Virus record (IMG/VR): IMGVR_UViG_3300033143_005624
Coordinates: 1 to 27,101 of that record
Reading direction: 5' to 3' (one strand)
Origin: a virus
DNA length: 27,101 nt
The notes under the pieces are model-generated. The model did no database searches and was not told the origin of the DNA. It worked only from the letters and a program-made list of their open reading frames with translations. How positions within the stretch are numbered: the first letter of the stretch is position 1; each line of letters begins with the position of its first letter. Made by a program: the position numbers and the translations under genes. Below, one piece after another: positions 5,213-19,459 of the stretch.

Positions 5213-5518
5213 TCACGAATAGGTAGGGTGTTGGAAGGAAAAGTGATCAGATCCATTGGTATTACTGAAGTTTGACCGATAAATCATGCCGTTAACGTAC
5301 ACAGACACGACAATATCAGATCCCATTGGAGGTGCGTGCATAAACTTCACCATGTTGCCTCCAATGAGGGTATAGTCTTCACCGGGACACTGCAGTAGGC
5401 CGTTGACAAACACGTAAGGGACTTGTAAGCCACAGCGCTCACAGCTTGTATTGTCAGGGAAGCTGTGACCAAGAGTGCGACAAAGGTCTTTTATCAACTG
5501 TTTTGCTGACTCAGTCAC
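5213..5518 (-). CDS. CxxxGH...CxxCG family protein, paralogue 1
   Basis: The protein has 101 residues from GTG 5518, with AAAGGA seven bases upstream; the GTGA junction overlaps the upstream stop. The N-terminus carries the shared signature LIKDLCRTLGHSF, then CERCGLQ (residues about 7-32). The four metal ligands are likely Cys, His, Cys, Cys, as a compact zinc ribbon. The C-terminal 65 residues differ from the other paralogues and read as beta-rich (FVNGLLQCPGEDYTLIGGN; IVVSVYVNGMIYRSNF). Small phage and prophage proteins with CxxxGHxW...CxxCG are widespread (DUF1660-like) and have no established function. Last gene of the leftward unit, just before the terminator. Confidence 0.75.
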   Translation of the reverse strand: MTESAKQLIKDLCRTLGHSFPDNTSCERCGLQVPYVFVNGLLQCPGEDYTLIGGNMVKFMHAPPMGSDIVVSVYVNGMIYRSNFSNTNGSDHFSFQHPTYS

Positions 5519-5862
5519 AGAAAAATCCTTTGTTGAACATAATTTAGGTTGGCGGGGACCATATATTTGACAATGACATCTCTTCCATGCGTATGATCTA
5601 TTTCAACGGTGTAGTTAACTATAGTTCCTTCCATCTCAAGAGTGGTCAGCACGTGACTAGCTACCCGAACCATCTCGTACTGAAGCTGTGGAGTGTTAGG
5701 CATCCCTACAAATTTAGATAGATTGTCTTGTAAAGTCTTCTTAACCAGAACTATAGGTCCTTCACCACAGCGTTGACATTCAAAAAGATCTGGTTTCATC
5801 TCATGGCCGACTGCTCGGCAGATGTCTTCTTTAAGTTTCTTTGCTCTCTGTGTCTGTTCCAC
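5515..5862 (-). CDS. CxxxGH...CxxCG family protein, paralogue 2
   Basis: The protein has 115 residues from GTG 5862, with only a weak purine-rich site (AAGAAA), so coupling to the upstream gene (overlap 32 bases) is likely. Signature: LKEDICRAVGHEM near residue 11-23, then ECQRCGEG at about 28-35. The remaining about 80 residues include a helix (MVRVASHVLTTLEMEG) and a beta hairpin (IVNYTVEIDHTHGRDVIVKY). This hairpin echoes that in paralogue 5 (VQIEISITEDIG), so the variable domain may also be related. Function unknown. Confidence 0.75.
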   Translation of the reverse strand: MEQTQRAKKLKEDICRAVGHEMKPDLFECQRCGEGPIVLVKKTLQDNLSKFVGMPNTPQLQYEMVRVASHVLTTLEMEGTIVNYTVEIDHTHGRDVIVKYMVPANLNYVQQRIFL

Positions 5863-6097
5863 GTTTCTTAGCTCTGTCTAGTATACTGTAACGTCTCACC
5901 ATTAGATCTGAGTACTTAACTTTAGGTTGGATTGGTCTCTGTTCTCCACAGCGACGGCACTCCTCGTAGCTAGCCCAAGTGTCTATAGTTATTCTTGTAG
6001 CTACTCCAGGAGGTGACTTGACTTTTTCCTCTATCTCCTCAGGACCTCCCCAGTCATGTCCTACAACTCGACAGATGTTCTTTTTAAACTCACTCAT
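5831..6097 (-). CDS. CxxxGH...CxxCG family protein, paralogue 3
   Basis: The protein has 88 residues from ATG 6097, which overlaps the upstream stop (ATGAGTGA). The frame is open to 6130, but that part belongs to the preceding gene. Signature: FKKNICRVVGHDW, then a 25-residue insertion containing TRITIDTWASY, then ECRRCGEQRP. The longer gap between the two ligand pairs suggests an extra beta hairpin within the zinc ribbon. The C-terminus is basic (SILDRAKKRGTDTESK). Confidence 0.75.
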   Translation of the reverse strand: MSEFKKNICRVVGHDWGGPEEIEEKVKSPPGVATRITIDTWASYEECRRCGEQRPIQPKVKYSDLMVRRYSILDRAKKRGTDTESKET

Positions 6098-6245
6098 CTT
6101 TCTTTGACCACTCTGCCCAAGGGTCTTCAACCTCTTCTTGCATAGAACACCTTCTGCATATTTTATAAGAAGCTACTCGCGTAAAGGAGATAGCCCAATC
6201 ATGCCCCATCATATCACAGATGCGATTATGTGGTTGCTCCGCCAA
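6090..6245 (-). CDS. CxxxGH...CxxC family protein, paralogue 4 (minimal)
   Basis: The protein has 51 residues. I chose TTG 6245 because GGGGAGG lies nine bases upstream and no ATG occurs before the signature. An open frame to 6359 runs through the upstream gene without a site. Signature: NRICDMMGHDWAISF, then SYKICRRCSMQ. In this copy the Gly after the second Cys pair is Ser. It ends with an acidic tail (EEVEDPWAEWSKKDE) and is essentially the zinc-ribbon core alone, with no variable domain. It overlaps both neighbours. Confidence 0.65.
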   Translation of the reverse strand: MAEQPHNRICDMMGHDWAISFTRVASYKICRRCSMQEEVEDPWAEWSKKDE

Positions 6246-6420
6246 TGTTCCATTCCTCCCCTGAATAAACTGATCTGAGTCTTGCGAAACAGTTCGAACA
6301 AATAATTTTTCCGTTAATGGTAGCGATAGGATTAACAGTACAACACAACTTGGGCTCAAAAGTTAAGATCCAATGATCAACATACTTCGGAGTCATGTCT
6401 GGTAGATTACCTTTACTCAT
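6226..6420 (-). CDS. Small Cys-rich protein
   Basis: The protein has 64 residues from ATG 6420, overlapping the end of the preceding gene (stop TAA inside ATGAGTAA), with a weak site. It begins MSKGNLPDMTPKYVDHWILT. It carries two Cys pairs, KLCCTVNP and IICSNCFARL, in a ribbon-like arrangement different from the CxxxGH family. It lies inside the paralogue array and is probably another zinc-binding mini-protein. Function unknown. Confidence 0.6.
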   Translation of the reverse strand: MSKGNLPDMTPKYVDHWILTFEPKLCCTVNPIATINGKIICSNCFARLRSVYSGEEWNIGGATT

Positions 6421-6622
6421 CAATATCTATTTTGTAGATAGCTCTTGAATTATAAACAGTAAGTCCTATATCTTCTGTTATAGAAATTTCAATTTGAACT
6501 TCTGTTACCTTCTCACAACGCTTACACTCTTTAATATACTTTCCTTGAAAGTAAACTGGCTCCTCCCATTCATGACCAACTGCTCTGCAGATGTCCTTTT
6601 TGAGTTGATGCTCTCTAGCCAT
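6413..6622 (-). CDS. CxxxGH...CxxC family protein, paralogue 5
   Basis: The protein has 69 residues from ATG 6622 with GGAGAG 12 bases upstream, a long spacing. Signature: MAREHQLKKDICRAVGHEW at residues 1-19, then KECKRCEKV at about 32-40. The C-terminus is a beta hairpin (EVQIEISITEDIGLTVYNSR). Residues KKDICRAVGHE are almost identical to paralogue 2 (KEDICRAVGHE), pointing to recent duplication. It overlaps the upstream 39-residue gene by 8 bases. Confidence 0.75.
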   Translation of the reverse strand: MAREHQLKKDICRAVGHEWEEPVYFQGKYIKECKRCEKVTEVQIEISITEDIGLTVYNSRAIYKIDIDE

Positions 6623-6739: not shown

Positions 6740-6838
6740 TTATCTCCGCTGATGTTCTTTATGGTCATCGTTGACCCATCTACTACAACTACATTGTCGT
6801 TGTCTTAGATGCGTTTTAATACTATATCGCTTACTCAT
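6740..6838 (-). CDS. 32-residue CxC mini-protein
   Basis: ATG 6838 overlaps the stop of the preceding gene (ATGAGTAAG). The stop TAA sits within the next gene's ribosome binding site. The protein begins MSKRYSIKTHLRQRQCSCSR and ends HKEHQRR: basic, His-rich and with one CxC. The frame is open further upstream (6925), but those residues are the antiphase of the membrane-protein gene. Very short, so supported mainly by the overlap pattern. Confidence 0.4.
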   Translation of the reverse strand: MSKRYSIKTHLRQRQCSCSRWVNDDHKEHQRR

Positions 6839-7007
6839 AACCACACCTGCATGTAGACAACACGCGATTACCATCCGGAGTAGTAAAAGCATAGCCGGAG
6901 ATACTATCTTCATGTACAAACACAATAGCTACTCCGCATGTCTTCAATAGTACATAAAAGCTAAAGCCGACTATCAATATTGCTATGATGGTGGGAAGTA
7001 GTTTCAT
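6831..7007 (-). CDS. Small membrane-anchored or exported protein with CxC tail
   Basis: Read directly: 58 residues from ATG 7007 to TAA at 6831-6833. The N-terminus is a hydrophobic span (MKLLPTIIAILIVGFSFYVL) and may be a signal anchor. The rest is short and ends STCRCGYE. The start lies only 7 bases from the 3' end of the tmRNA (7015) and has no ribosome binding site outside the tmRNA body. If tmRNA maturation cuts there, this gene would be translated from a message with a 7-nt leader. Function unknown. Confidence 0.6.
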   Translation of the reverse strand: MKLLPTIIAILIVGFSFYVLLKTCGVAIVFVHEDSISGYAFTTPDGNRVLSTCRCGYE

Positions 7008-7014
7008 AAATCAA

Positions 7015-7377
7015 TGGAGCGAGGGAGATTCGAACTCCCGTCCTGAATGCATTCTCGTTCAGATGATACTGTTGTGCCCAGTTAGGTATGAGCGACCACG
7101 TCAGGGATGAATAGGCTTGTTACGGTGTCCCATTCACTTTCCACCACCTGATTCTACTAACTCCGAGCTGAAAGAATCAGGAAAAATACTCGGAGGTTAT
7201 GGAGCTTAGGCTGGTACTAGTACACGCCCGAAGGCTTGTTCTACTACTTCCTCAGCTACCGCTAGAAGCTTATTAGGCTTAGCAGTTATTGTTTTGGTCT
7301 CCTTTTAACGAGGCCAAGAGACCAACCTCGAACAGCATCTGACGACAACTTCATTCAGTCGATATCCTTTTCGCCCC
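7015..7377 (-). ncRNA. ssrA: Phage-encoded transfer-messenger RNA (tmRNA)
   Basis: tmRNA rescues ribosomes stalled on messages lacking a stop codon by acting first as an alanyl-tRNA and then as a template for a degradation tag. On the minus strand the 5' end GGGGCGA (7377-7371) pairs with TCGCTCC (7022-7016) as a 7-bp acceptor stem with one G-U. The 3' domain has GGAC, a 5-bp T-stem GGGAG/CTCCC with loop TTCGAAT, and discriminator A at 7015. CCA is not encoded (TTG follows). Near the 5' end, GGATATCGAC resembles the conserved GGAUUCGAC. An internal tag frame (7283-7206) starts after AACTGCTAA. The length, about 363 nt, is normal. The 5' 23 nt lie inside the upstream gene's 3' end (stop 7355). 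Unusual only in being on a phage and overlapping a gene. Confidence 0.92.
7206..7283 (-). other. tmRNA tag-peptide reading frame
   Basis: Within the tmRNA the probable resume codon is GCT (7283-7281) and the frame ends in TAA (7208-7206). The tag would have 25 residues, starting AKPNKLLAVAEEVV and ending FGRVLVPA. That is long compared with typical tags of about 10-15 residues, and it ends LVPA rather than the common ALAA; the small hydrophobic end still fits recognition by ClpXP-type proteases. Resume-codon choice is inferred from the sequence context and the position of the frame. Confidence 0.7.
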
Positions 7378-7774
7378 CATATTTAATATTTCTTACGTCA
7401 CAAATTAGTTTCTCTTCCTTAGTAAGCTCTTCAGGATAGATGATTGCATCTAAATTTATTGCCTGATAGCTGGGTATATAATGCGGCGGTGAGCTCATAC
7501 TACGAAAGATTTCAAAGGGTTGATTTACTTCAATAGATATAACGTGAATGTCAAGCTTACTAATCTTACGAGGAAAATTCTCTGTAATAGAAAAGGCAAT
7601 GATACGTCTTTCTGCTTGAAGGTTCTTCGACATAGAGTCTAGTCTTATTTGAGTCTCATAAGCTTCAAATCCTTTCCAGTTTAAGTTATGACACGACATT
7701 ATATAGCCGATGGGACCTCTATCGATTATCTCAATTAAAGGGCCTAAATAGATCCTTCCTCTCGTGAAATCCAT
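7355..7774 (-). CDS. Hypothetical protein overlapping the tmRNA 5' end
   Basis: The protein has 139 residues from ATG 7774. It begins MDFTRGRIYLGPLIEIIDRG and looks like a soluble alpha/beta protein with beta-strand-rich segments (ISKLDIHVISIEVNQPFEIF). No family recognised. TATAAT on the minus strand (7784-7779) ends four bases before the ATG, so the message is effectively leaderless and no ribosome binding site is present. The last seven codons and the stop (GGG GGC GAA AAG GAT ATC GAC TGA) are the 5' end of the tmRNA. RNase P cleavage at the tmRNA 5' end would cut this message within the GGG codon and leave it without a stop. It is the first gene of the leftward unit. Confidence 0.75.
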   Translation of the reverse strand: MDFTRGRIYLGPLIEIIDRGPIGYIMSCHNLNWKGFEAYETQIRLDSMSKNLQAERRIIAFSITENFPRKISKLDIHVISIEVNQPFEIFRSMSSPPHYIPSYQAINLDAIIYPEELTKEEKLICDVRNIKYGGEKDID

Positions 7775-7778
7775 GATT

Positions 7779-7784
7779 ATTATA
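7779..7784 (-). promoter_or_regulatory. Leftward promoter -10 for the tmRNA/Cys-rich unit
   Basis: A perfect TATAAT on the minus strand lies four bases from ATG 7774. The expected transcription start coincides with the start codon. No good -35 hexamer is visible (about CGTATT at the right distance). The upstream flank TTAATG-TATAAT resembles the flank of the rightward promoter at 3992 (TATTAG-TATAAT), but the 12-nt box found there is absent. Confidence 0.55.
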
Positions 7785-7818
7785 CATTAAAAGCATATTC
7801 TTAATACGGGAAACACTC

Positions 7819-7841
7819 AATTGTCGTAGGTATCGACAATT
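7819..7841. repeat. Hairpin in divergent promoter region
   Basis: AATTGTCG (7819-7826) and CGACAATT (7834-7841) form a perfect 8-bp inverted repeat with a 7-base loop. It lies between the leftward unit (start 7774) and the rightward structural unit (start 7897), so it may be an operator shared by both. A second weaker stem (GGTAGAAA/TTTCTGCC, 7848-7867) follows in the rightward leader. Confidence 0.45.
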
Positions 7842-7896
7842 TATTAAGGTAGAAAGTCATTTTCTGCCGTTTATTGCCTACAGCGAGGATTTTACG

Positions 7897-9231
7897 ATGG
7901 ATAGTCTTAAAGGAAAATATAAGGGGTATGACCCCATGCGCCGCAGGGATGCTGCCCAAGAGTTCCGGCTATCAGCAATTAAGAATACACTGATGTACGG
8001 GGCCGAACGTAAGCTCCAGGAGTACTTTCAAGCTAAGCGGTTGACCGCAGCAAAAGTGCTCAGTACACAGATTGATAACCTGGACATTACAGAAGATTCT
8101 GATTCAGGGTCTCTAATGTTCACAGGTAAAATTGTTGCTAAAGTGTCTTTTATTGACGACAATCAACTTAAGACAGCGGAACTACCTGTGACTGTTTTAG
8201 ATAGTCAGCTTGCGTTGGTAGACAAAGAGATTGAGAAGGCTCTGTCCGAAGCATCCGCAGAAGCTGAAGAAGCACCTATTGACCCAACTAAAGTGACAGC
8301 TTCTCTAACCGATTTTAAAGTTGTTGACGATGGTACCAAATATCTGAAGGTGTATCATACAGCAGCGTATGGTGACCTAGAACCCATTGGAGCTGTCTCG
8401 AAAGATGAGTATACTGAGGCGGAAGGGCTAGAGGCTCTCCTAACAGAGATGTTCAAGGATGAAGCTACCTCGTGGCCTGCTGATGTATCCTTCGAAGGTG
8501 AGTTTACAGAACCAGAGATTACAGAAGCTTCTCCTGCACCTGAAGATGTTCAATATGTAGTTAAAGTTGATCCTTCATTGGAGAAGGAAGCAGAGGAAGA
8601 AGTTAATATGGAGTATCGTTATAAGTCCCACGATAATATTCGCCTCTCTGTTGAAAAAGAAAAGATGAACTACGATGCGCTACAGTCACGTATCACACAG
8701 CGTGCAATCGTAACCCTTTCTGACTCCCTACGTTCCAACCGAATGGGTACCTTTAAAATCAAGGATGCCTCAACAACCTATGATCCAGAAACGAAGATGG
8801 GTACAGTTGTTGTTCAAACAGAACTTCTTGATGGGCGTGATACAAAGCTTATATCTTTAGAGGTAGCTATTAATGGAGAGTCAATGACTCTTCCTACCAT
8901 TGATCAGGTAACTTCTATGCTAAAAGAAGCTAAACCGGTCGAAAACAAACCAGTCATTAAGAAAGAAGCTAAAAAGAAGCGTTCCCTTGAAAAGAAGGCT
9001 GGTGCAATGTCCCCTTCGAACACGGATTACCAAGAAGTTCTACGTATGCCAAAGGACTTTCTACCAAAGTCTCTCAAAGAGGGCGATGTTATCGAGGTCG
9101 ATGGTCTACGATGGAAACTCACTTCTAAGAGTGAAGGACAGCTTAGTAAGCAGAAGGACACGGCTAGTCATTGGCTGTTTGAGCGTGTAAGAGGTTACGA
9201 AAAACCTATTTACAAACAGGAAAGCTATTAA
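7897..9231 (+). CDS. Putative virion-associated protein, 444 residues
   Basis: Starts at ATG 7897 with GAGG about ten bases upstream. The sequence is soluble, acidic in the middle, and has a repeated architecture. Residues about 25-120 (helix, then MFTGKIVAKVSF, AELPVTVLD, and a helix ending KEIEKAL) resemble residues about 255-345 (helix, then MGTVVVQTELL, ISLEVAINGE, IDQVTSML). Both contain a basic helix followed by a beta-sheet and a short terminal helix. The segment joining them is Glu/Ala-rich. After a basic linker (IKKEAKKKRSLEKKAG) the C-terminus forms a small beta domain (GDVIEVDGLRWKLTS). No enzymatic motif. Its position at the head of the structural block suggests a minor head or neck component, which is inference only. 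Confidence 0.8.
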   Translation: MDSLKGKYKGYDPMRRRDAAQEFRLSAIKNTLMYGAERKLQEYFQAKRLTAAKVLSTQIDNLDITEDSDSGSLMFTGKIVAKVSFIDDNQLKTAELPVTVLDSQLALVDKEIEKALSEASAEAEEAPIDPTKVTASLTDFKVVDDGTKYLKVYHTAAYGDLEPIGAVSKDEYTEAEGLEALLTEMFKDEATSWPADVSFEGEFTEPEITEASPAPEDVQYVVKVDPSLEKEAEEEVNMEYRYKSHDNIRLSVEKEKMNYDALQSRITQRAIVTLSDSLRSNRMGTFKIKDASTTYDPETKMGTVVVQTELLDGRDTKLISLEVAINGESMTLPTIDQVTSMLKEAKPVENKPVIKKEAKKKRSLEKKAGAMSPSNTDYQEVLRMPKDFLPKSLKEGDVIEVDGLRWKLTSKSEGQLSKQKDTASHWLFERVRGYEKPIYKQESY

Positions 9232-16579: not shown

Positions 16580-19459
16580 ATGGACGAGTTACAATCTAAA
16601 ATTTGGAAACAGTTATTAGAGAGAGCTGCCGAGTATACTCTTCAGACTGACGATCCCGCTAGATGGTCGAAGAATTTTCTTAACGTAGATCTCTATAAGA
16701 ATCAAGAGGAGATCGTTTCGAAAGTGTGCGATCTCAATCGGTCCTATCTAGCTATTCTTGGAGCTCGTGGATCTGGAAAGTGCAGTCTGGGAGATACTCT
16801 TCTTTTTACTGAAAAAGGTATTATAGAAATTCAAGATTTAATTCCGGACACTGTACATACAGATGAAATTCCTCTTGAATTAAATCTATCTACTAAAGAA
16901 GGTATTGAAACAACTTCTCATTTTTATAATAACGGAATAAAAACCACTCTTAACATAACAACTAAACAGGGCTTCGAATTCGAGGGGTCATATAATCATC
17001 CGCTACTTTGCTTTACTTCTAAGTTAAAATTTAAATTTAAAAACTTGGAAGATATTAAAGAAGGTGATTATCTTTGTATACAACGTGGTCAACAACTATT
17101 TGCGAAAAATAAATTTAAAGATATCGGTGGAGATGCCGCTAGATTTTTAGGTTATTTAGTAGCTGAGGGGCATTTTAATAACCACGACGCTATTACCATC
17201 ACAAATGAAGATGTAGAATTTATTGAAGATACCTCTAAAGTTTCTAAAAGACTCTCTCTTGATTTTTATTATAGAAGAAGTTCTTTTCACTATAGAGGAA
17301 TTAGACCTATGCTGGAGCGCTGGGGGATTAAAAAAGGACTCTCCAATACCAAAGAAATCCCGAAATGCATCCTTCAAAGTCCCAAGCCTATTTTAGTTGA
17401 GTTTCTCAGGGCGTATTTTGAGGGAGACGGTGGAGTTGAAATATACACAAATAAGAAGGGGTATACCAAGGGCGTTGTTACATGTTCGACTAAATCAGAG
17501 AAGCTTGCAAAACAACTCCAAGTAGTTTTAACAAACTTCGGGATTATTTCTAAAAGGTACTTCACATATAAATGTGCGACCAATACCAAAAATAAAACAA
17601 AGCGAAAGTACTGGACTATTTGTATATCTGGAGAGAATGTCGATATTTTCGCTAAAGAAATTGGATTTCTTTTTAAAGAAAAAAGTGATAAGTTACTCCA
17701 AATCACCAACAAAAAAAGAAATACCAACACGAATATTGTCCCCTTTATTTCTGACCAATTTACAAACCTTTACAATTCAATAAGTCACGAACATAGTAAG
17801 AAAGGGGTAGTTACTGGTCGAAAACTTTTATCTTATTTTAGAAATGGTCAAAAGAAAAATGTTTCATATAATTCTTTAAAAGAGATTTCTAATACGTTAG
17901 TAATTGAAAAAGAGCCTCAACTTAAAAATACTGCTCTAGATATTTTTTCTAAGAATTATTTCTTCGACAAAGTTGTATCTATCAAAAAGGGTCGTGCTCA
18001 GACATATGACTTAACCGTACCTGGATCTCATAGCTTTACTAGTAACGGTTTCATCAGTCATAATTCATTCGGAACCTGCATCGGTTTAATCAAGCTTTGT
18101 CAGGATTATCCTGGGTTGGAAATAGGCCTGTTCGCGCCCCGCGCCGATCAGGCCAATCGTTTGGTTAGTGAGTCTAAGAAAGTTCTTGCTATTGGTAAGT
18201 TAGGTGATGAAGTAAACTGGGATAAAACTACAACAGACAAACTTACCTTTAGGAATGGATCTAATATTTTAGCTTTGTCTGCCGCGGAAACATCACTTCA
18301 GGAGGGTTGGCACTTTGCGGTAGTAGTCGTAGACGAGGCTCATCGCGTTTCTAACATGTCTATGTCTGAACGTATTATGCCGATGCTTGGTAGCAAAAAG
18401 ATATTTAAGCTAGTCAAGATTGGCATCCCGATGTTCAAAAACCATTTTTATAAGAGCTTTTCTGACGACAAGTATGAGCCTATCGTACACGACTGGTTAG
18501 CATCACCTATTCTTCTTGAATCAGGATTTAAAGAAATCAAAAATGATACTGGTAAGCTCATAAAGTATCCTGTTAAGGTGTTGGACCGAATGCCTCGATC
18601 TCTTAAGATTAAGATGTTCCCATCTTATCCCGAACTCCACTACGATGGAGATATGACCGAAATTGAATTTAACACTCAGTACGGGATGATCTGGATGGAC
18701 AATATCAATTCGTTCCTCCAGGGAGACGAGCCCGAAAAACTTATTGGAGCCTTCCCCACTCTTACAGGTGCAAATGCGGGAGAAGATTATTTCTTTGGTC
18801 TTGACACGAGCTCTGGTACTTTAATGCCAGGTAAGTATGATCTTGACTATACTGCCCTTTCTATCTGGCGGAAAAGAGGAGACTTAATAAAAGAAAAGGT
18901 AGCTTGTTTCCAATGGCAAGGTGGCGAAACTCTTTCCCAGCTTGAGCAAGTAGCTGGAATTGTCCACCCACATACCGGAATATTTCCCTGTAAATTTGGA
19001 TGTATAGACTATAGTAATGTTGGAATTACAGCGGTAGAGATGTTCAAACGGTTAAAAATACCTGCTGCCGGTGTAATATTTTCAGCTACTGATTCAGTGT
19101 CTAAAAAGAACTACAAAAATGCGATGGCGGACCATTTTAAATTTGAGCTCCAAGCTGATAGGGTTAAATACCCCCGAATGGAAGATATAGAGAGTCATAA
19201 AGTCTTTCGTAAGCACTACCATGAACTTCTTGCTCTAGAATGTCATGCTGGTGTTAGCCTCAATTCAAAAATTTGCGCTCCTCCGGGCATTCATGATGAT
19301 GGAAGTATGTCCGACTTTTTAGGAGTGTATGCCTCCGATAAGTCTCAGACGTTCAAAAAGATAAGCTCTACGTACAGAATACCAGGAACAGGCATGCCTA
19401 GAAGCATAGTTGGTGGAGGGATGCCAGGAAGAGATAACGGAAAGAGGTTTCTTAAATGA
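16580..19459 (+). CDS. terL: Terminase large subunit, interrupted by an intein
   Basis: The precursor has 959 residues; mature TerL after splicing has 531. TerL is the ATP-driven DNA-packaging motor and nuclease that docks on the portal. Extein features: Walker A GARGSGK at residues 61-67, split by the intein and continuing SFGTCIG; Walker B VVVVDEAH (D585-E586 in precursor numbering); and a C-terminal RNase H-like nuclease domain with acidic residues in FFGLDTSSG (D742), GCIDYSNVG (D810) and DDGSMSDFLG (D912). The sizes of both halves fit the family. The start is ATG 16580, with a weak site. It overlaps the next gene (ATGA). Residues 68-495 are a complete intein, described separately, so the enzyme is inactive as an ATPase until splicing restores the P-loop. 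Confidence 0.95.
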   Translation: MDELQSKIWKQLLERAAEYTLQTDDPARWSKNFLNVDLYKNQEEIVSKVCDLNRSYLAILGARGSGKCSLGDTLLFTEKGIIEIQDLIPDTVHTDEIPLELNLSTKEGIETTSHFYNNGIKTTLNITTKQGFEFEGSYNHPLLCFTSKLKFKFKNLEDIKEGDYLCIQRGQQLFAKNKFKDIGGDAARFLGYLVAEGHFNNHDAITITNEDVEFIEDTSKVSKRLSLDFYYRRSSFHYRGIRPMLERWGIKKGLSNTKEIPKCILQSPKPILVEFLRAYFEGDGGVEIYTNKKGYTKGVVTCSTKSEKLAKQLQVVLTNFGIISKRYFTYKCATNTKNKTKRKYWTICISGENVDIFAKEIGFLFKEKSDKLLQITNKKRNTNTNIVPFISDQFTNLYNSISHEHSKKGVVTGRKLLSYFRNGQKKNVSYNSLKEISNTLVIEKEPQLKNTALDIFSKNYFFDKVVSIKKGRAQTYDLTVPGSHSFTSNGFISHNSFGTCIGLIKLCQDYPGLEIGLFAPRADQANRLVSESKKVLAIGKLGDEVNWDKTTTDKLTFRNGSNILALSAAETSLQEGWHFAVVVVDEAHRVSNMSMSERIMPMLGSKKIFKLVKIGIPMFKNHFYKSFSDDKYEPIVHDWLASPILLESGFKEIKNDTGKLIKYPVKVLDRMPRSLKIKMFPSYPELHYDGDMTEIEFNTQYGMIWMDNINSFLQGDEPEKLIGAFPTLTGANAGEDYFFGLDTSSGTLMPGKYDLDYTALSIWRKRGDLIKEKVACFQWQGGETLSQLEQVAGIVHPHTGIFPCKFGCIDYSNVGITAVEMFKRLKIPAAGVIFSATDSVSKKNYKNAMADHFKFELQADRVKYPRMEDIESHKVFRKHYHELLALECHAGVSLNSKICAPPGIHDDGSMSDFLGVYASDKSQTFKKISSTYRIPGTGMPRSIVGGGMPGRDNGKRFLK
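16781..18064 (+). mobile_element. Intein with LAGLIDADG homing endonuclease in terL Walker A
   Basis: A 428-residue in-frame insertion starting at Cys68 and ending His-Asn at residues 494-495, followed by Ser as the +1 nucleophile. N-terminal splice block: CSLGDTLLFTEKGIIEI. Block B-like: FEGSYNHPLLCF (His at intein residue 73). Endonuclease blocks: FLGYLVAEGHF (about 122-132) and FLRAYFEGDGGVEI (about 208-221), with acidic residues in the metal-binding positions. C-terminal block: TYDLTVPGSHSFTSNGFISHN-S. All splicing residues are intact, so it should be active. The DNA is visibly more A/T-rich (many AAA, TTT, AAT codons) than the flanking terminase, pointing to separate acquisition. Insertion right after GSGK targets the most conserved codons of the gene, a classic intein site. 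Confidence 0.93.

Follow-up and report, generated by a model that had tools for sequence, protein, structure and literature searches.

An orphan open reading frame of 139 codons (ORF139) runs into the 5′ end of a tmRNA gene in what is, by its sequence, a large, uncultivated phage and a distant relative of Bacillus phage G. To judge from this one contig and three related phages, ORF139 is an insertion between the ancestral tmRNA promoter region and the mature tmRNA 5′ end. Our preferred reading, to which we assign a probability of roughly 0.6, is that an orphan of ~400 bp was inserted, that ORF139 and the tmRNA would be made as one transcript, that RNase P would convert the ORF139 part of this transcript into a non-stop message, and that the overlap between the two genes is most likely a by-product of the insertion.

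The window, by which we mean the whole stretch of DNA analyzed, is a 27.1-kb viral contig (IMGVR_UViG_3300033143_005624, positions 1 to 27,101). Searching its DNA against phages returned no match; at the protein level, its portal protein shares 31% identity with the portal of Bacillus phage G. Further along the window, an intein with a LAGLIDADG endonuclease domain splits a terminase-like gene (16580-19459). The features on which the argument is built are the following.

6831..7007, minus strand: ORF of 58 aa, its ATG 7 nt past the tmRNA 3′ end and without a Shine-Dalgarno sequence
7015..7377, minus strand: one-piece tmRNA (ssrA) with tag AKPNKLLAVAEEVVEQAFGRVLVPA and G3-U70 in the acceptor stem, found by ARAGORN and Rfam RF00023
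7355..7377, minus strand: overlap of 23 nt, in which the tmRNA 5′ end takes in codons 134-139 and the TGA of ORF139 as well as two bases of its codon 133
7355..7774, minus strand: ORF139, orphan ORF of 139 codons in the same orientation as the tmRNA
7698..7725, minus strand: promoter-like site within ORF139 (TCGATA-16-TATAAT), possibly a separate tmRNA promoter
7775..7896: divergent control region of 122 bp that separates the 444-aa gene from ORF139 and corresponds to 124-141 bp in the relatives
7779..7784, minus strand: -10-like TATAAT, 4 nt before the ORF139 ATG and 401 nt before the tmRNA
7897..9231, plus strand: conserved phage protein of 444 aa, syntenic anchor with 49-51% identity to the relatives

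Downstream of the tmRNA, a run of small minus-strand ORFs extends over 5213-6622, and several of these share a common K.DICR..GH...C.RC pattern, as zinc-ribbon-like paralogues might. The same small-ORF series adjoins the tmRNA in the related contigs L013, L014, and L023.

The tmRNA is certainly real, judging from compensatory changes: all 12 acceptor and T stem pairs are kept in four related phage tmRNAs, seven of them via changes on both sides, and the G3-U70 pair is invariant across these four. The score against Rfam RF00023 (89.7 bits) is above the threshold set by the gathering score of 47, and the acceptor stem is still formed when the full RNA of ORF139 plus tmRNA is folded, with pair probabilities of 0.74-0.83. 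ARAGORN assigns a tag reading frame of 25 residues with a stop. tmRNA tags usually end in LAA; this one has VLVPA at its C-terminal end, versus ELAVA or DLVVA in the relatives. Given this ending and the long tag of 25 residues, the efficiency with which a host protease would degrade tagged proteins is uncertain. At 7012-7015, the discriminator A (7015) is followed by TTG at the place where related phages encode CCA, so CCA addition by a host enzyme would be required. Should the phage be like its relatives in this respect, it would depend on host SmpB, as no SmpB was found in a 210-kb relative or in phage G.

The mature 5′ end of the tmRNA falls at 7377 according to both ARAGORN and Rfam, and the same-strand frame is open across it, which confirms the overlap of the gene at 7355-7774 with the tmRNA 5′ end described in the initial annotation. 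Its statement that the last seven sense codons lie inside the tmRNA holds for six of them, as codons 134-139 (G E K D I D) are complete and lie with the TGA on the tmRNA side of the expected RNase P cut (7378|7377). The seventh, codon 133, is a GGG at 7378-7376 which is split by that cut, so that a single G of it would stay with the message. The length of the overlap is unremarkable, since for an ORF entering the 5′ end of the relatives' tmRNAs, the distance to the first stop ranges from 8 to 115 nt according to frame; 23 nt is thus what any insert without its own stop would give.

Related contigs were gathered via searches with the portal and 444-aa proteins, and an extra search with the 358-aa and 444-aa genes yielded one further phage contig only (L023). 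The relatives are three phages on four contigs, namely L013, L014/L015 (one phage, two contigs), and L023. In each, the tmRNA is positioned and oriented as in the window and diverges from the 444-aa gene. From the 444-aa start codon to the tmRNA 5′ end, the distance is 124 bp in L013, 141 bp in L014/L015, and 132 bp in L023, versus 519 bp in the window. No ORF139 occupies this interval in any of the three related phages with a tmRNA. An arrangement in which gene and tmRNA are well separated, named in the initial annotation as evidence against its proposal, did not occur in these phages; they are without the gene altogether.

The control region of all three relatives ends in GTGTATAA(T/G), 20-21 nt before the tmRNA. 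When other stretches of the window were compared with this region, 0 of 2160 scored as high as the 122 bp upstream of ORF139, and with a finer null, 1 of 5118 did; the similarity itself is moderate, with scores of 65-80 versus 114-141 among the relatives. In the relatives, the window's TATAAT has its counterpart 20-21 nt upstream of the tmRNA 5′ end. Of two 40-nt segments compared with the relatives, the one preceding the ORF139 ATG matches their -10 block (15 of 10268 null positions), whereas the one that immediately precedes the tmRNA shows no match to their leader (647 of 10268 null positions). Because the relatives' control region has its counterpart upstream of ORF139 and not before the tmRNA, we infer an insertion of ORF139 between the two.

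Within the divergent control region, a perfect 8-bp inverted repeat (AATTGTCG/CGACAATT) with a 7-nt spacer occupies 7819-7841. The repeat was not seen in the aligned regions of the relatives and is possibly an operator that arrived with the insertion. As a separate matter, we considered whether ORF139 was born from the relatives' control region, as the element TTGAC..ACTTCTAT.TAATTAAA, which is conserved there, resembles part of the ORF body. The resemblance (14 of 500 shuffles, one of nine tests) was too weak, and this origin was rejected.

Homologues of ORF139 above chance were found neither in viral contigs, phages, plasmids, species genomes, and related phage records nor in PHROGs, Pfam, NCBIfam, PADLOC, and PDB chains. 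The only hit, in L020 (E = 0.009), spans 36 residues, is interrupted by a stop, and was taken as chance. A hairpin or RNase III-like site within the ORF was also sought and rejected, the local folds being weak.

ORF139 is nevertheless probably a real gene, on the grounds of its length and codon usage. In 5000 dinucleotide shuffles of the stretch of 542 bp, no ORF reached 139 codons (mean 48, maximum 130), and the in-frame codon score of -0.02 per codon lies within the range of the phage's other small genes (-0.12 to +0.05). Both observations count against the reading that ORF139 is untranslated, in which the 397 bp would be leader or a junk insert, the long frame would be fortuitous, and no non-stop message would exist. 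What would fit an untranslated ORF is its orphan status, together with an ATG that lacks a Shine-Dalgarno sequence (+0.9 kcal/mol, among the weakest of 35 starts), the lowest first-position GC of the 21 ORFs compared (0.41), and a single-sequence structure model of very low confidence (pLDDT 31.5). Weighing these, we consider it unlikely that the frame is untranslated.

A shared ORF139-tmRNA transcript is plausible on present sequence comparisons, and so is the non-stop message to which it would lead once the tmRNA matures. Such a transcript is favored because the ancestral tmRNA control region now stands upstream of ORF139, and no -10-like hexamer with 5/6 matches occurs within 143 nt before the tmRNA. 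The proposal of the initial annotation that both genes share one transcript thus gains support, and RNase P maturation of such a transcript would indeed remove the stop. The tmRNA might instead have a promoter of its own inside ORF139, for example at 7725-7698, in which case most tmRNA would be made without any ORF139 message and the overlap would be silent. The site TCGATA-16-TATAAT matches at 10 of 12 positions, and tmRNA is normally needed in large amounts. However, sites of this kind are not above shuffles (2 found, 3.8 expected), there is no -10 near the tmRNA, unlike in the relatives, and any read-through from upstream would still be cut, which makes a separate promoter seem quite improbable. 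Still, this candidate promoter, which could serve the tmRNA alone, and the missing Shine-Dalgarno sequence at the ORF139 ATG are points against the shared-transcript explanation. In addition, as the ATG lies 4 nt past the TATAAT, a transcript starting at that promoter would either be a leaderless message or miss the ATG.

With insertion and a shared transcript as the preferred reading, the following course of events is proposed. An orphan gene of ~400 bp would have entered the tmRNA transcription unit and run on to the first in-frame stop within the tmRNA. ORF139 and the tmRNA would then be transcribed as one RNA from the displaced promoter, and early ribosomes would terminate normally at the TGA of the uncut RNA. 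RNase P acts only after the tmRNA 3′ end is made, ~360 nt further on, and so ribosomes behind the polymerase can reach the TGA first. After tmRNA folding, the cut at 7378|7377 would leave an ORF139 message that ends in ...AAA UAU G-3′ and has no stop. Later ribosomes would run off this cut message, and trans-translation with host SmpB would tag residues 1-132, giving ...VRNIKY-A-AKPNKLLAVAEEVVEQAFGRVLVPA. Full-length ORF139 would thus be made in small amounts, perhaps early. Most likely, then, the overlap is a by-product of the insertion that limits ORF139 yield and not an evolved rescue switch; its use as a regulatory switch is speculative.

The initial annotation had proposed such a use: ORF139 would be a rescue backup or a sensor that regulates itself, its product being tagged and destroyed from a non-stop message while trans-translation works and accumulating when it fails. 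E. coli ArfA and B. subtilis BrfA are precedents. The geometry would indeed give a non-stop message, the mature tmRNA would act on the RNA from which it was cut, and the principle is established for arfA (PMC3989581) and brfA (PMC6881298). Against this, ORF139 resembles no protein at all and no rescue factor in particular, with no match to such factors in Pfam, NCBIfam, or PDB chain sequences. It has 139 aa, compared with 71 sense codons for brfA, and a calculated pI of 5.6. Neither is the overlap conserved, as ORF139 is absent from all related phages with a tmRNA, and the comparison of relatives hence gives no sign of selection on it. That the product accumulates only when trans-translation fails was overstated, since the stop is still present on the uncut transcript and, as a matter of general knowledge, ribosomes may reach the TGA there. 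As neither a rescue-related protein nor selection on the overlap was found, the backup or sensor reading is unsupported, and we regard it as very improbable. We give equally little credence to the broader idea that the phage put a newly acquired gene under the control of its own tmRNA, with the untagged protein as a sensor of rescue capacity. If that were true, each tmRNA maturation would also turn an ORF139 message into a tmRNA substrate, and untagged full-length protein would be present only in a short time window or with trans-translation saturated. A sensor or rescue backup would matter more, but it has no support so far.

Should the shared transcript be confirmed, the phage would be a natural example, besides Carsonella, of an mRNA that loses its stop through maturation of the very RNA that rescues it. 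It would also show how a phage can gain a gene in front of a stable RNA and keep that RNA intact.

Non-stop messages generated via t(m)RNA overlap are rare but have already been published (PMC4131195), and the present case is a new phage instance of that kind. For Carsonella ruddii smpB-ssrA, Hudson, Lau and Williams 2014, citing Mao et al. 2009, describe smpB as extending into the tmRNA 5′ end, and they state that this situation was seen nowhere else (PMC4131195). As in Carsonella, a same-strand upstream CDS runs into the tmRNA here and has its stop inside the 5′ part of the mature tmRNA, and maturation should give a non-stop message; the feedback idea, too, was already stated for smpB-ssrA (PMC4131195). 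The two cases differ in that Carsonella has smpB in a reduced endosymbiont genome, whereas the phage has an inserted orphan gene, and both are predicted from sequence only. Among 115,660 valid bacterial t(m)RNAs, the same survey recorded 250 overlaps with an upstream CDS (PMC4131195 Table 4). These have identical geometry and were seen there as candidate high-frequency non-stop mRNAs, but the survey covered only known-domain proteins in bacterial genomes, whereas ORF139 is a domain-less phage ORF.

Loss of the stop by other routes is known from the E. coli arfA message, in which it results from RNase III cleavage (PMC3989581), and from the B. subtilis brfA message, in which a terminator lies inside the ORF (PMC6881298). 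As with these genes, a stop-less message would place the ORF139 product under trans-translation control; in arfA and brfA, however, the stop is lost without tmRNA maturation, and both genes encode ribosome rescue factors, to which ORF139 shows no resemblance. A further parallel is the tRNA-Sec nested in selB, whose processing was proposed to repress the protein (PMC8124441). Both involve processing of a structured RNA in an ORF, which is a whole tRNA in selB and the first 23 nt of the tmRNA here.

Huge phages with tmRNA are known (PMC7162821), and the tmRNA of the window is one-piece and phage-encoded like those of Bacillus phage G and mycobacteriophages. In phages G and Phabba, unlike in the window, the tmRNA sits among tRNA genes, and no ORF from upstream runs into it. 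It is uncommon, though not without other examples, for a CDS to end within the 5′ end of a tmRNA. Among 34 distinct one-piece tmRNAs in viral contigs, a sample limited by the search pattern and including some host- or prophage-like contigs, there are four in which a same-strand ORF of 60 aa or more ends inside the tmRNA (overlaps 1-53 nt) and another four in which an ORF ends within 10 nt upstream. The unrelated viral contig L134 has 420 codons of an ORF with an open 5′ end, which stops 1 nt inside a one-piece tmRNA, and overlaps also occur in L054 (83 aa, 49 nt) and L129 (69 aa, 8 nt). Set beside these systems, the new fact is a comparative one: insertion of ORF139, a gene absent in the relatives, appears to have displaced the control region of the very tmRNA into which it runs.
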